A stretch of 64,000 nt of DNA from assembly GCF_030815585.1 (NCBI RefSeq), contig NZ_JAUSWY010000001.1:4588001-4652000 (forward strand), read 5' to 3'. Positions 43,133 through 57,505 of this stretch are shown here, one piece after another. The notes beneath the pieces were generated by a model that searched no databases, was not told the DNA's origin, and saw only the letters and a program-made list of their open reading frames with translations. The stretch comes from Arthrobacter pascens (GTDB lineage: Bacteria > Actinomycetota > Actinomycetes > Actinomycetales > Micrococcaceae). The translations under genes and the position numbers were made by a program. How positions within the stretch are numbered: the first letter of the stretch is position 1; the number at the start of each line of letters is the position of its first letter.

Positions 43133-44851
43133 ATGAAGAATCTGACCAGGATTGGGGGAGCGGCGGCTGTAGCTGCGACTCTGGCGCTGACGGCCTGCGG
43201 GGGCGGCGGCACACCCACCGGACCGGAGACAGGCCAGGGACAGGGAGCCGGCAGCGACTTGTCCAAGCTCATCAGCATCAACGAGAAGCCTGCCGCCGAT
43301 CTTGAGCAGGGCGGCAAGGTCACCCTCCCGCTCGGCAGCATCGGACCGAACTTCAACGGGTTCTCCAATGACGGCAACAGCTCTGACAACTCCGCAATGA
43401 TGGCCCCGATCAACCCCGTGGCGGTCACCGGTGGCGGAATCGGCGGCTGCTGGAAGGTGGACTTCGAAGGCAAGGCCACGCCCAACAAGGATTTCTGCGA
43501 ATCCGTGGAGAGCGAGGTGAAGGACGGCAAACAGATCGTCACCATAAAGGTCAACGACAAAGCCACCTTCAATGACGGCACTCCCATCGACATCAAGGCC
43601 TTCCAGAACACCTGGAACATCCTGAAGAGCCCGGATGCCGGCTACGACATCGTCTCCTCCGGGTCCTACGCCTTCGTCGAGTCAGTGGAGGCAGGCAGCA
43701 GCGATAAGGAAGTCATCACCACGCTGAGCCAGCCCGTCTACCCGCTGGAAGACCTCTACTTTGGCCTCATCCACCCCGCCGTGAACACCCCCCAGATCTT
43801 CAACGAGGGATTCGTTGGCGAAATGCACCCGGAATGGATGGCGGGACCGTTCAAGGTGGACCAGTATGACGCGGCCGGCAAGACCGTGAGCCTGGTGCCG
43901 AACGAGAAGTGGTGGGGCAACAAGCCAGTCCTGGAGAACGTGGTGTTCCGCCAGCTTGAGACCAGCGCCCAGATCGCCGCCTTCAAGAACGGCGAAATCG
44001 ACGCCATGTCCGCCAACACCATCGCCCTCTACAAGCAGCTCGAGGGCACCAAGGACTCCGAGGTCCGCCGCGGCCAGCGGCTCTTCGCCGGCGGCATGAA
44101 CATCAATGCCCAGAAGATCACCGACGTTGCAGTCCGCAAGGCGATCTTCGCGGCCGTGGACCGCGAAGCCCTCCGCAAGGTCCGCTTCAACGGGCTGAAC
44201 TGGGAGGAGCCCAGCTCCGGCTCCATGATGCTCCTGCCGTTCTCCGAGTACTACCAGGACAACTACCCCGTCAAGGAATCCGGCGCCGATGCTGCCAAGA
44301 AGATCCTCACCGACGCCGGATACACCGCGAATGCCAACGGCATCATGGAGAAGGACGGCAAGCCTGCCGCCTTCAAGATCAGCAACTTCGGTGATGACCC
44401 CACCACCCTGGCCTTCACCCAGACCCTGCAGAAGCAGCTGCAGGCCGGCGGCCTGGACGTGGGCATCGACCAGCGTGCTTCCGCCGACTTCGGCAAGGTC
44501 ATCGGCGGCCGCGACTTCGACATGAGCGTCTCCGGCTACACCGTTGGCGCCGACGCTACGTCCGCCGTCAAGCAGTACTACGACTCCAAGACCAACGAAA
44601 ACGGACTGGGCGACGCCGAACTGGACAAGAAGATCGCAGACCTGACCTCCATCGAGGACAACGCCGAGCGCAACAAGGCAGCAATGGACGTGGAGAAGGA
44701 GCACATGGCGAAGTACTTCTCCATGGGCGTGGTCATGAACGGCCCGCAGATCTCCTTCGTCCGCACCGGCTTGGCCAACTACGGACCGTCCCTGTTCCAG
44801 AGCCTGTCCCAGGTTCCGGACTGGACCACCCTCGGCTGGGTCAAGAAGTAG
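43133..44851 (+). CDS. Peptide-type ABC transporter substrate-binding lipoprotein
   Basis: A 572-residue family 5 solute-binding protein. The signal peptide ends in TLALTAC (lipobox Cys22), then a Gly-rich linker. The mature protein has the family blocks VTIKVNDKATFNDGTPIDIKAF (seen in part as KATFNDGTPIDIKAF), NEKWWGNKP and VRKAIFAAVDREALRK. It binds oligopeptide or a similar ligand outside the membrane and delivers it to the permeases encoded just upstream. The gene is last in the operon, followed by a terminator hairpin. Confidence 0.93.
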   Translation: MKNLTRIGGAAAVAATLALTACGGGGTPTGPETGQGQGAGSDLSKLISINEKPAADLEQGGKVTLPLGSIGPNFNGFSNDGNSSDNSAMMAPINPVAVTGGGIGGCWKVDFEGKATPNKDFCESVESEVKDGKQIVTIKVNDKATFNDGTPIDIKAFQNTWNILKSPDAGYDIVSSGSYAFVESVEAGSSDKEVITTLSQPVYPLEDLYFGLIHPAVNTPQIFNEGFVGEMHPEWMAGPFKVDQYDAAGKTVSLVPNEKWWGNKPVLENVVFRQLETSAQIAAFKNGEIDAMSANTIALYKQLEGTKDSEVRRGQRLFAGGMNINAQKITDVAVRKAIFAAVDREALRKVRFNGLNWEEPSSGSMMLLPFSEYYQDNYPVKESGADAAKKILTDAGYTANANGIMEKDGKPAAFKISNFGDDPTTLAFTQTLQKQLQAGGLDVGIDQRASADFGKVIGGRDFDMSVSGYTVGADATSAVKQYYDSKTNENGLGDAELDKKIADLTSIEDNAERNKAAMDVEKEHMAKYFSMGVVMNGPQISFVRTGLANYGPSLFQSLSQVPDWTTLGWVKK

Positions 44852-44884: not shown

Positions 44885-44919
44885 GGCCGGCATCTCTGGA
44901 CGTCCGGGAGGTGCCGGCC
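44885..44919 (+). terminator. Terminator of the peptide ABC operon
   Basis: Arms GGCCGGCATCTC (44885-44896) and GAGGTGCCGGCC (44908-44919) pair over 12 positions with one G-U, around an 11-base loop. It starts 34 bases after the binding protein stop and is followed by TTCGTCGTT. Confidence 0.75.
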
Positions 44920-44945: not shown

Positions 44946-45105
44946 TGGGACCCTCTCTCACATCCTGCTGGTTTTCTTGGGACGCTCTCGCAGCTCCTGC
45001 TGGTTTTCTTGGGACGCTCTCGCAGCTCCTGCTGGTTTTCTTGGGACGCTTTCGCAGCTCCGGCTCAGTTCTTTTTCTGACCCTGACCGAATTTGCGAGA
45101 GCGTT
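44946..45105 (+). repeat. 32-bp-period repeat array A
   Basis: Four direct copies of a 32-bp unit start at 44946, 44978, 45010 and 45042. The second and third are identical; the first and last are diverged. The conserved core is GGGACGCTCTCGCAG with a T-rich tail. An inverted core, TGCGAGAGCGTT, lies at 45094-45105. The same core and the same 32-bp period recur at 56881 and 57429. Not CRISPR: there are no cas genes, the repeats are not palindromic and the spacers are not unique. Confidence 0.9.
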
Positions 45106-53683: not shown

Positions 53684-55705
53684 ATGGCAACAGAGACAGT
53701 TGCAAAACCCCGCACCAGCGTGCGGGTTGGCGTCCAGAAGTTCGGGACGTTCCTGTCCGGCATGATCATGCCCAACATCGGGGCGTTTATCGCCTGGGGC
53801 CTCATCACCGCTCTCTTCATTGAGAAGGGCTGGATCCCCGTGCCTCAGCTCGGCGGCTTCGGCACCAACGCCGAGGGAGTGACGAACACGGGCCTGGTGG
53901 GCCCCATGATCACCTACCTGCTGCCTCTCCTGATTGCCTACACCGGTGGCAGGATGGTCTACGACGTCCGCGGCGGCGTCGTGGGTGCCATCGGCACGAT
54001 GGGTGTGATCGTGGGCGCCGGGATCCCGATGTTCATTGGCGCCATGATCATGGGCCCGCTCGGCGGCTGGACCATGAAGAAGATCGATTCCCTCTGGGAG
54101 GGGAAGATCCGCCCCGGCTTCGAGATGCTGGTGAACAACTTCGCGGCCGGTATCTGGGGTGCACTGCTGGCCATGCTGGGCTTCTACGGAATCTCCCCTT
54201 TGGTCACTGCCTTCAGTACGGGGGCAGGCAACGTGGTCCAGTTCCTGGTCAACAACGGCCTCCTGCCGCTGACCAGCATTTTCATTGAACCCGCCAAGGT
54301 GCTGTTCCTGAACAACGCCATAAACCACGGCGTGCTGACCCCGCTGGGCATCCAGCAGTCGCTTGACCAGGGCAAGTCCATCCTGTTCCTGCTGGAAGCC
54401 AACCCCGGCCCTGGCCTGGGTATCCTGCTCGCCTACATGTTCTTCGGCCGCGGAATTGCCAAGGCCTCAGCCCCCGGCGCTGCCATCATCCACTTCTTCG
54501 GCGGCATCCACGAAATATACTTCCCCTACGTCCTGATGCGTCCGTTGCTGATCCTGGCCTCGATCGCAGGCGGCATGACGGGCATCGCCACGCTGGCCAT
54601 CACCAACGCGGGCCTCGTTGCGCCGGCGGCTCCGGGTTCCATCATCGCGGTGATCGCCCAAACCTCCCGTGACAGCTACATCGGCGTGATCCTCTCGGTG
54701 GTGCTCGCCACCGCGGTGTCGTTCCTGGTTGCCTCCGTGATCCTGAAGACCACCAAGCACAGCGACGAAGTAGACCTGACCGATGCCACTTCCCGCATGG
54801 AAACCATGAAGGGCAAGAAAAGCTCGGTCTCCTCGGTCCTGACTGGCGCAGGCACGGGTGCCGCAACCACTGCTGTCCTTGCCGGCCCCATCAAGAACAT
54901 CGTGTTCGCCTGCGACGCCGGCATGGGTTCCAGTGCCATGGGTGCCTCGGTGCTGCGGAACAAGATCAAGGCGGCCGGTTTCCCGGACGTCAAGGTCACC
55001 AATGCGTCCATCGCCAGCCTCAGTGACACCTACGATGTGGTGATCACCCACCAGGACCTGACTGAGCGGGCCAAGCCCGCGACGTCGAACGCCGTGCATT
55101 ATTCCGTGGACAACTTCATGAACAGCCCGCGGTACGACGAGATTGTTGAGCTGGTCAAGAGCAGCAACACCGAGGGAACCTCACCGGAAACGGCCGACGG
55201 CGGTGCTCCCGCCAGCGCAGCAACTGCGGCACCGGCCGCCGGAGTCGCTACCGAAGCCGCCGCCGTCGGGCCTTCCGACATCCTGGTGGCTGACAGCGTC
55301 ATCCTCAACGGCAGCGCCACCAACCGGGACGCCGCGATCGATGAAGCCGGCCAGCTGCTGCTGGACCGCGACGCCGTCGACGAGGGCTACATCGCGGCCA
55401 TGCACGAGCGCGAGGAATCCGTGTCCACTTACATGGGCAGCTTCCTGGCCATCCCGCACGGCACCAACGCAGCCAAGGACCACATCAAAAGGTCCGCGGT
55501 GTCCGTGATCCGTTACCCGGACGGCATCGACTGGAACGGCAAACAGGTCAAGTTCGTGGTGGGCGTGGCAGGCATCAACAACGAGCACCTGCACATCCTG
55601 TCCTCCATCGCGAAGGTCTTTACCGACAAGGCCCAGGTGGCGCAGCTTGAAGCGGCCACCACGGTGGATGAAGTGCTGGAGCTATTCGGAAAGGTCAACT
55701 CATAA
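53684..55705 (+). CDS. mtlA: PTS mannitol transporter, EIICBA
   Basis: A 673-residue protein with all three EII domains. EIIC is the N-terminal membrane part (about 1-350, with FGTFLSGMIMPNIGAFIAWG). EIIB has the phospho-Cys410 in FACDAGMGSSAMGASVLRN. EIIA has the phospho-His592 in AIPHGTNAAK. It imports mannitol as mannitol 1-phosphate, taking phosphate from HPr. ATG 53684 was chosen with AGGAAA upstream; an upstream extension would overlap the operators. It overlaps mtlD by one base. Confidence 0.95.
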   Translation: MATETVAKPRTSVRVGVQKFGTFLSGMIMPNIGAFIAWGLITALFIEKGWIPVPQLGGFGTNAEGVTNTGLVGPMITYLLPLLIAYTGGRMVYDVRGGVVGAIGTMGVIVGAGIPMFIGAMIMGPLGGWTMKKIDSLWEGKIRPGFEMLVNNFAAGIWGALLAMLGFYGISPLVTAFSTGAGNVVQFLVNNGLLPLTSIFIEPAKVLFLNNAINHGVLTPLGIQQSLDQGKSILFLLEANPGPGLGILLAYMFFGRGIAKASAPGAAIIHFFGGIHEIYFPYVLMRPLLILASIAGGMTGIATLAITNAGLVAPAAPGSIIAVIAQTSRDSYIGVILSVVLATAVSFLVASVILKTTKHSDEVDLTDATSRMETMKGKKSSVSSVLTGAGTGAATTAVLAGPIKNIVFACDAGMGSSAMGASVLRNKIKAAGFPDVKVTNASIASLSDTYDVVITHQDLTERAKPATSNAVHYSVDNFMNSPRYDEIVELVKSSNTEGTSPETADGGAPASAATAAPAAGVATEAAAVGPSDILVADSVILNGSATNRDAAIDEAGQLLLDRDAVDEGYIAAMHEREESVSTYMGSFLAIPHGTNAAKDHIKRSAVSVIRYPDGIDWNGKQVKFVVGVAGINNEHLHILSSIAKVFTDKAQVAQLEAATTVDEVLELFGKVNS

Positions 55706-56868
55706 TGAAGGCTGTACATTTCGGAGCCGGCAACATCGGCCGGGGATTCGTGGGACTGCAGCTGCACCAGGCCGGGTATGAGGTGGTGTTCGCCGATGTC
55801 GCGGATGGACTCATCACCCAGCTGGCGGCGGCGGAGAGCTACGCCGTCCACGAGGTGGGGGAGAACCCCACTGTCCGGACGGTGGATAACTTCCGGGCGC
55901 TGAATTCCGGCACCCAGGAAGCCGAACTGGTGGCGGAAATCGCGACGGCGGACATCCTCACCACCGCCGTGGGACCGCACATCCTGAAGTTCGTGGCACC
56001 GGCCATCACCAAGGGCATCGCCGCACGCGACGCCGCCCTGGCGCCGCTGCAGGTCATGGCCTGCGAGAACGCCATCAACGCCACGGACATCCTCCGCGCG
56101 GAAGTAGCCGCGCTCTGGGATGAGGCCGCGGGCTCCCTGGACTCCGCGGCGGTGTTTGCGAACACTGCCGTGGACCGGATTGTGCCCAACCAGGAACCAG
56201 GGCAGGGCCTGGACGTCACCGTGGAGACGTTCTACGAGTGGGTCATCGACCGGACGCCCTTTGCCGGGGCGGCGCCGGTGATCCCGGGTGCAACATTCGT
56301 CGACGAGCTCTCGCCCTATATCGAGCGGAAACTTTTCACGGTGAACACGGGGCATGCCGCCGCGGCGTACTTCGGCTTCGAGGCCGGCTTGGAGAAGCTC
56401 TCCGAGGCGATGGCCGATCAGGATGTGGCCGAAGACGTGCGGGCCGTCCTGGAGGAAACCAAGCAGCTCCTGGTTGCCAAGCATGGCTTCAACAACGACG
56501 AGCAGGAAGCCTACGTCCAGAAGATCCTGGCCCGGTTCTCCAACCCGCACCTGCCGGACACCGTCAACCGGGTGGGCCGGGCTCCGCTGCGGAAGCTGAG
56601 CCGGCATGAGCGGTTCATCGGCCCGGCCGCTGAACTGGCTGAACGCGGGATTGTGCCGGAGGCGCTCCTGGGCGCCATCGCCGCAGCCCTGCGTTTCAAC
56701 GACCCCGCCGACGCCGAGGCCACCGAACTCGCGCAGATCCTCGCATCGTCCACGGCGGGCGACGCCACGGCTTCGATTACCGGCCTGGCTCCGGAGCACC
56801 CCTTGTTCGACGCCGTGTCCACGCTGGTGGAGGAACGCCAGGCGGAAGAGGCCAAGGCCCCGGCCTGA
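55705..56868 (+). CDS. mtlD: Mannitol-1-phosphate 5-dehydrogenase
   Basis: A 387-residue polyol dehydrogenase that makes fructose 6-phosphate from mannitol 1-phosphate with NAD. The N-terminal motif MKAVHFGAGNIGRGFVG (GAGNIGRG at 7-14) is specific to this family. The conserved NTGHAAAAYFG and ERKLFTVNTGH regions lie near 210-220. It overlaps the mtlA stop (TAATG). A GC-rich hairpin follows at 56962 after a repeat array. Confidence 0.95.
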   Translation: MKAVHFGAGNIGRGFVGLQLHQAGYEVVFADVADGLITQLAAAESYAVHEVGENPTVRTVDNFRALNSGTQEAELVAEIATADILTTAVGPHILKFVAPAITKGIAARDAALAPLQVMACENAINATDILRAEVAALWDEAAGSLDSAAVFANTAVDRIVPNQEPGQGLDVTVETFYEWVIDRTPFAGAAPVIPGATFVDELSPYIERKLFTVNTGHAAAAYFGFEAGLEKLSEAMADQDVAEDVRAVLEETKQLLVAKHGFNNDEQEAYVQKILARFSNPHLPDTVNRVGRAPLRKLSRHERFIGPAAELAERGIVPEALLGAIAAALRFNDPADAEATELAQILASSTAGDATASITGLAPEHPLFDAVSTLVEERQAEEAKAPA

Positions 56869-56878
56869 CCCCTTCCCT

Positions 56879-56957
56879 CCAACGCTCTCTCACTTTTCGC
56901 TGCTTTTTCCGGAACCCTCTCGCAGATCCTGCGCCTTTTTCCGGAACCCTCACGCAC
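56879..56957 (+). repeat. 32-bp-period repeat array B
   Basis: Three direct copies of the core, AACGCTCTCTCAC (56881), AACCCTCTCGCAG (56913) and AACCCTCACGCAC (56945), spaced by exactly 32 bases. The intervals are T-rich (CTTTTTCC before the core). Same core and period as array A. It starts about ten bases after the mtlD stop. Confidence 0.88.
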
Positions 56958-56961
56958 CGTA

Positions 56962-56993
56962 CGACGCCGGCACCCAACGTGGTGCCGGCGTCG
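56962..56993. terminator. GC-rich hairpin after mtlD
   Basis: Perfect 13-bp arms, CGACGCCGGCACC (56962-56974) and GGTGCCGGCGTCG (56981-56993), with a six-base loop. It lies between mtlD and the stop of the small minus-strand gene, so it can act as a bidirectional terminator. Confidence 0.85.
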
Positions 56994-57000
56994 TCGTACT

Positions 57001-57428: not shown

Positions 57429-57505
57429 CTGAGAGAGGGTTCCGCCCCAGGCGGCCGAAAGTGAGAGAGCGTTGGGGATTAGGACGCCGAAAGTGAGAGA
57501 GCGTT
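57429..57505 (-). repeat. 32-bp-period repeat array C
   Basis: Three copies of the same core in reverse orientation: CTGAGAGAGGGTT (57429), GTGAGAGAGCGTT (57461) and GTGAGAGAGCGTT (57493), each 32 bases apart. On the minus strand these read AACGCTCTCTCAC. It is the mirror partner of array B, on the other side of the small membrane protein gene. Confidence 0.88.

Follow-up and report, generated by a model that had tools for sequence, protein, structure and literature searches.

What is the repeat array that lies behind a transporter gene of Arthrobacter pascens, and what might it do there? The window analysed is a stretch of 64,000 nucleotides (positions 4,588,001–4,652,000 of a 4.73-Mb single-contig genome). 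In it, the gene for an extracellular solute-binding protein of family 5 (peptide ABC transporter type; ORF at 43133–44851, + strand; Pfam PF00496, E = 1.9e-47) is directly 5' of an array, here called array A. The initial annotation described four direct copies 32 bases apart followed by one inverted core, and this layout is correct. A pattern search places + strand cores at 44949–44961 (GACCCTCTCTCAC, exact), at 44981–44993 and 45013–45025 (both GACGCTCTCGCAG, exact) and at 45045–45057 (GACGCTTTCGCAG, one mismatch), all in steps of 32, and then a convergent core on the – strand at 45093–45105, with one mismatch. The sequence between the cores is also as nearly fixed as had been claimed, since the three 19-base spacers contain a single differing base.

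Two further places in the window had been named as carrying the same repeat, and both are correct. Array B (56881–56957, + strand) consists of three direct cores in 32-bp steps, with starts at 56881, 56913 and 56945 and one mismatch in the last. It begins 12 bp past the stop codon of a mannitol dehydrogenase family gene (55705–56868, + strand; Pfam PF01232 and PF08125) and is followed by an ordinary terminator-like hairpin, identified by eye (GTACGACGCCGGCACC..GGTGCCGGCGTCGTCGTAC, then TTTACT; 56959–56999, + strand), of a kind that is present in many orthologous loci. Array C (57429–57505, – strand) has three direct cores starting at 57429, 57461 and 57493, with divergent genes on either side according to the codon-score script by which genes were called. 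At the corresponding site in another genome (G030), the + and – halves are adjacent, so arrays B and C are probably the two halves of a single composite, which an inserted ORF-bearing stretch would have separated.

Is the core or the spacing the defining feature? Allowing up to two mismatches, the core alone gives 25 matches in the window against 23.4 expected, which is not significant. The pair core-N19-core, on the other hand, is found 59 times in the 4.73-Mb genome and only once when the pattern is reversed; the motif is thus neither absent elsewhere in the genome nor randomly spaced, the two outcomes that the initial annotation had named as fatal to its claim. Among same-strand neighbours no more than 120 bp apart, with one mismatch allowed in each pair, 414 of 449 are exactly 32 apart, with 31 in 11 cases and 33 in 12. 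A repeat family with a constant 32-bp period, placed mostly 3' of genes, is therefore borne out genome-wide.

The 32-bp unit starts with the 13-bp core RACSCTCTCTCAC, then TT, often a doublet CC, AA or TT, and then YGC; G/C-rich bases come next, and after the A/T tract that follows them about five more. The core is shared between the arrays, but to call it exactly the same, as had been done, is slightly too strong: the R, S, K and S positions vary, and some copies carry a mismatch. The spacer has a conserved pattern of its own, with T at position 14 (94%), G at 18 (89%), A/T at 24–26 (85–94%) and G/C at 28–31 (78–92%). Positions 15 and 16 vary jointly, CC, AA or TT being found far above the expectation for independent bases (MI 0.78).

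These unit and spacer figures, like those for gene gaps and run placement below, draw on the window together with 24 stretches of the same genome, and on 80 of the 116 named loci. The tandem T/A counts, the tract classes of 54 hairpins and the convergent pairs more than 38 bp apart use the window, the 24 stretches and all 116 named loci; to this set (again with all 116), 20 stretches of genome G020 were added for neighbour distances, T-tract direction, composition and folding, terminator replacement, direct-only clusters, neighbouring spacers, composites and arm lengths. Because the loci were picked for holding arrays, the background figures describe array-bearing neighbourhoods.

Where do the arrays sit? 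In most cases, the pyrimidine-rich strand of an array coincides with the sense strand of the nearest upstream gene. The same-strand runs number 189: in 129 the gene immediately upstream is read in the same sense, in 53 an opposite gene intervenes, and in 7 there is neither. Mapping the matches against gene ends, as the initial annotation had proposed, places the start of 80 of those 129 runs within 30 nt of the stop codon, and in some runs the core contributes part of the stop codon itself (T+GAC, T+AAC). For the 111 clusters in which both neighbour genes were called, 9 are in divergent and 48 in convergent gaps; among the 391 gaps of 100 nt or longer that these loci contain (array gaps included), 119 are divergent and 67 convergent. 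Array C, in its gap between divergent genes by the codon-score calls, is one of the exceptions to the gene-end rule. Clusters with direct units only touch a gene end in sense orientation in 55 cases, only a wrong-sense end in 12 (12 of the 67 that touch any gene end) and no gene end in 32. No common theme was apparent among 20 neighbour proteins scanned, which comprised transporters, dehydrogenases, a tRNA synthetase, regulators and others, with one transposase.

The arrays are not merely tandem. Opposite-strand neighbours are convergent in 81 cases and divergent in one, and where two arrays converge closely, the two innermost cores, one + and one –, pair into a short-looped stem of 13 to about 23 bp. 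For the class at a distance of 26 bp, 40 aligned palindromes, each oriented with the flanking T on the shown strand, pair in 79.4% of cells over 26 tested pairs, compared to 73.2% (sd 0.7) for shuffled controls, which ignore shared descent, and 40–54% for slid ones. The 22-pair stem is 87.6% paired, with changes on both sides at 12 pairs, and the four flanking A/T pairs are only 34.4% paired. In 55 composites with at least two units per side, the C/G position of the innermost cores is concordant in 55 of 55 (0.70 expected) and their A/G position in 0.75 (0.48 expected). No such signal is carried by the second cores (C/G 0.71 against 0.73 expected, A/G 0.38 against 0.50), whose pairing with one another was rejected, nor is there any core covariation in the 25 convergent pairs more than 38 bp apart. 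Part of the agreement between cores must reflect shared descent, since inner-to-outer pairs and same-strand neighbours agree at the C/G position in 0.82 (0.70–0.73 expected). A hairpin within the single unit was considered and rejected: positions 20–22 and 27–31 are absent from the 25 strongest co-varying pairs. With covariation confined to the inner pair, the outer units would have to be something else.

How much does the inner pair resemble an intrinsic terminator? Innermost pairs at 38 bp or less form 69 hairpins with a mean z of –7.7 relative to mononucleotide shuffles; a stable hairpin is found in this class, with covariation in its 26-bp members, and is lacking in direct-only arrays. A T-tract follows about five bases past the core, after a partly paired stretch, and its direction tracks the adjacent gene: a right-hand T on the + strand is found in 8 of 12 scored hairpins where the only adjacent gene end is + and in 1 of 12 where it is – (p = 0.009; 5 and 3 cases, respectively, had no clear tract and were left unscored), and the left-hand tract gives p = 0.03. 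The A/T tracts flanking the stem avoid pairing with each other, their own-strand classes being TA 15, AT 8, TT 2 and AA 0 out of 54, and TA 16, AT 11, TT 3 and AA 2 out of 70 in a larger set (p = 0.0002). As far as sequence can tell, the inner pairs are intrinsic-terminator-like.

If so, gene ends with such a hairpin might dispense with an ordinary one. A scan for hairpins followed by T, in which stems overlapping cores were left out, detected ordinary hairpins at gene ends as follows: 2 of 82 where an array hairpin is present, 11 of 66 with direct arrays only and 88 of 512 without cores; the scan has low sensitivity and kept duplicates, and since an array takes up space, the direct-array class is only a rough control for it. 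(Gene ends with other core placements, 8 of 43, form a class outside the comparison.) Array-hairpin ends differ from those without cores (p = 0.0001) and from those with direct arrays (p = 0.003), whereas direct-only arrays and no arrays do not differ in ordinary-hairpin frequency (p = 1.0). Direct-only arrays do not exclude ordinary hairpins and thus, by this test, are no substitute for them.

On balance, we lean towards a REP-like gene-end element, in which an inner pair serving as a terminator hairpin is flanked by evenly spaced sites for a putative factor. The 32-bp units are mostly placed just past stop codons, with the pyrimidine-rich strand as the sense strand. In closely convergent arrays, the innermost + and – cores fold into a stem to whose base the G/C-rich bases add in part, and the T-tract behind it tends to be on the strand that is sense for the neighbouring gene. 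This inner hairpin would act as a factor-independent terminator in place of the ordinary GCCGGC-type hairpin. The outer direct units, outside the stem, would most likely be repeated recognition sites about three helical turns apart, on which a trans-acting factor might aid 3'-end formation or stop the polymerase. Statistics of the sequence support the family, its period, orientation and gene-end place, the inner hairpin, the direction of the T-tract and the scarcity of ordinary terminators beside the hairpin; that the element terminates and that the factor reads the direct units, we infer. The earlier interpretation thus had the period and the gene-end place right, but overlooked both the covarying, terminator-like innermost hairpin and the orientation to the upstream gene that most copies share.

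Several observations count against the terminator reading. In 28 composites with only a + gene end adjacent, the far-side array is about as long as the near-side one (2.50 and 2.82 units), although a terminator of one gene needs no far-side array. The G/C-rich base of the stem is only partly paired, and the A/T tracts do not pair, unlike those of the usual bidirectional terminators. For array A itself the role is less certain, because an ordinary terminator-like hairpin, found by eye (GGCCGGCATC..GGTGCCGGCC; 44886–44919, + strand), precedes the array in the interval after the stop codon, and because the array has no tight hairpin: its inverted core is 48 bp from the fourth unit, outside the class of 38 bp or less. 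If the favoured reading is right, a group of soil actinobacteria uses one common, evenly spaced and sequence-specific signal to mark dozens of gene ends in each genome, at places where unrelated hairpins are found in other species. The division between pairing inner units and non-pairing outer ones, together with the fixed period, would make a factor-assisted terminator directly testable.

Could the arrays instead be mobile or selfish composite palindromes of the REP/BIME kind, copied by some enzyme, with a hairpin that serves mobilisation rather than termination? In that case they would persist mainly past stop codons because insertion is least harmful there. Such an origin is possible, if on the unlikely side. 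There are up to 96 pairs per genome, with a patchy distribution across species; arm lengths are alike on both sides irrespective of gene context; and two distant arrays, one at 902.9 kb and the other at 4703.1 kb, have 77 bp in common at 94.8%. According to PMC3733652, REP repeats are short, dispersed and near stop codons, with inverted pairs; their distance from 3' ends is under 20 bp, the gaps they occupy are convergent or unidirectional, and their termini supply stop codons. The present arrays share this placement downstream of genes and in such gaps, with exceptions including array C. However, neither the dependence of T-tract direction on the adjacent gene nor the scarcity of ordinary terminators at array hairpins fits a mobile repeat well, several species have arrays at one and the same gene end, and some of the shared stretches are larger duplications. 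Each REP unit, moreover, is imperfectly palindromic and carries a constant tag, GTAG or CGTC, whereas the single 32-bp unit is non-palindromic, is arrayed directly at a fixed 32 bp and, its first core base being G (0.60) or A (0.40), has GCGTC or GCGTT as its end. A search for the Y1 (RAYT-type) transposase domain, PF01797, found no match in the genome of the window and matched 5 of 14 control genomes, which speaks against a RAYT-driven REP. Even as a plain repeat family, the arrays would be a useful marker, one that multiplies, replaces terminators and takes insertion sequences.

A different possibility is that the arrays, with their even spacing and their alternation of G/C-rich and A/T tracts, are read as double-stranded DNA by a nucleoid protein or gyrase, which would wrap or bridge them and absorb supercoils between convergent genes. 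The exact period is kept even where adjacent spacers differ (in triplets at 32-bp spacing, neighbouring spacers are identical in 38 of 184 and share at most 13 of 19 bases in 61), the spacer is conserved by G/C or A/T class more than by letter, the arms are symmetric, and convergent distances are mostly near 16, 26, 36–37 and 47–48. (Among the matches listed, from 13 genomes, only convergent gaps of 2–5, 12–13 and 23–25 are found.) All of this suits a DNA-binding array. Distances of 22, 32, 33, 60, 74 and 75 also occur, however. Over all convergent pairs, the 10.5-bp phasing (R = 0.73, n = 71) is carried by the 26-bp class, with its 34 pairs; with distinct distances counted once it becomes marginal (0.03–0.05), and a period of about 14 is the best. 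That something counts helix turns, as the initial annotation proposed, accordingly stays a suggestion, favoured by 32 being about three turns and by the clustered convergent distances and weakened by the phasing. The base-pair covariation seen in the inner pair is the mark of a single-stranded structure, and tandem units favour T over A on their own strand by 161 to 41 (neither in 201 of 403), which would not be expected of a strand-neutral site. We consider the DNA-binding array unlikely. For the outer units, the evidence is mixed between a DNA and an RNA reading, the latter favoured by the predominant sense orientation, the excess of T over A and the pyrimidine-rich sense strand; a trans-acting factor is their putative reader.

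That the C-rich, G-poor sense RNA of direct arrays provides rut sites for Rho loading is quite improbable: direct runs of at least three units (n = 133) are indeed richer in C and poorer in G (C 0.381, G 0.206, T 0.260) than control 3' flanks (C 0.332, G 0.308, T 0.176) and mostly in sense orientation, but their RNA shows no deficit of structure relative to mononucleotide shuffles (mean z –1.2), Rho is widespread and the 32-bp family is not, and to our knowledge rut sites need neither an exact 32-nt period nor a near-invariant 13-nt core.

Within the favoured reading, who would read the outer units? A bolder and doubtful proposal is that a dedicated, lineage-specific 3'-end factor reads the 13-bp core at exact three-turn spacing beside the terminator hairpin, and that core and factor co-evolve. 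The suggestion of co-evolution comes from three species that keep a few 32-bp arrays with changed core letters. In G001, G018 and G002, standard core pairs number 0, 1 and 1, respectively. A looser pattern, which permitted the changed letters and one mismatch, gave 3, 5 and 5 pairs at lag 32 in 400 kb of each. The remaining lags between 14 and 70 together gave 2, 1 and 5 pairs, five of those eight being at 64; all of these are small numbers. The letters are CCATCA in 5 of 5 cores in G001, CCCTCA in 4 of 9 in G018 and TCCTCA in 5 of 8 in G002. A letter-blind count of repeated 10-mers in the same 400 kb stretches showed no enrichment at lag 32. If the proposal is true, this would be a sequence-specific bacterial termination system that is neither Rho nor hairpin alone, and the differences in core letters among species would give a means of searching for the factor.

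Do the arrays belong to a described family? The initial annotation did not recognise the element, and no membership was found in any known family tested; a literature search, covering open-access papers and few subscription journals, gave no description of a 32-bp family. According to PMC3630211, the DNA uptake sequences of Neisseria have a short core with letters that vary by species, and their inverted pairs are associated with terminators, much as here. They are present in thousands of copies, whereas the 32-bp family has about a hundred exact cores, in arrays; with up to one mismatch, the core has 181 matches in the genome against 101 for the reversed control, a copy number that does not fit an uptake sequence. 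The STAR elements of Staphylococcus, as described in PMC3532100, are likewise intergenic direct repeats with a short core and variable spacers, in which the number of units grows and shrinks. Their core, T(G/A/T)TGTTG(G/T)GGCCC(C/A), does not match RACSCTCTCTCAC, which excludes them; their spacing is at least 40 bp of recurring sequence, and the hairpin partner and sense orientation of the present family are without counterpart in that description. The family is distinct from its nearest kinds, the REP/BIME elements, uptake-sequence terminators and STAR elements, since it lacks at least one tested defining feature of each. Ordinary intrinsic terminators share the hairpin and T-tract near stop codons, and orthologous gene ends have one or the other, sometimes both; the array stem differs from these in that its sequence is common to many loci per genome and is accompanied by flanking 32-bp direct units. 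A CRISPR array was rejected on account of the 13-bp core, the patterned spacers and the number of dispersed loci, as was an Rfam family, the 4 matches all being far under the families' own thresholds.

The family is restricted in its distribution. Core-N19-core pairs were found in 74 of 150 genomes in a draw from the genus and in 44 of 395 genomes, from 2 of 32 genera, in a draw from the family; the reversed-pattern control gave 0 in nearly all genomes of these draws and 4 at most. Named loci among the matches listed are from Arthrobacter, Pseudarthrobacter, Paenarthrobacter or Micrococcaceae bacterium. Plasmid matches are confined to two records, of 1.35 and 1.0 Mb, from the same Arthrobacter strain. 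The exact pattern had no match in viral contigs, nor did blastn of one array match any phage, and a virus or phage origin was rejected on these grounds.

Orthologous gene ends show how arrays and ordinary hairpins alternate. At the array A gene end, 27 of 30 fetched loci were readable by eye (own genome included): 15 have a GCCGGC-type ordinary hairpin only, 9 have no ordinary hairpin and either a standard array (5) or a variant with CCCTCA-like cores (4), and 3 (own genome, G020 and G021) have both an ordinary hairpin and a family array. At the array B gene end, also read by eye, 5 of 30 loci have standard units and 4 have variant units between the stop codon and the ordinary hairpin, 5 have convergent arrays without an ordinary hairpin, and the remaining 16 have an ordinary hairpin alone, have arrays behind an ordinary hairpin, or are damaged.

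By hand count, the genome of the window holds at least about 32 array loci, single cores included. The dnaA gene is at 4.45 Mb, and the half of the chromosome around it has 23 of the 32 array loci listed. Four loci (L050, L051, L063 and L067) form an array subfamily with common stretches of about 130–500 bases; as these take in the flanks, part of the copy number must be due to larger duplications. At L051 (5935–6043), an rRNA operon has four – strand units about 137 bp past its 5S gene, on the strand opposite to it. IS-end-like sequences are found beside the arrays at L049, L053 and L062. At L063 (8777–10093; about 2.74 Mb in the genome of the window), a Mutator-family transposase gene (PF00872) splits an array in two parts and has, by eye, an identical 8 bases (GCGGGGTT) on both sides, within a 32-bp unit.
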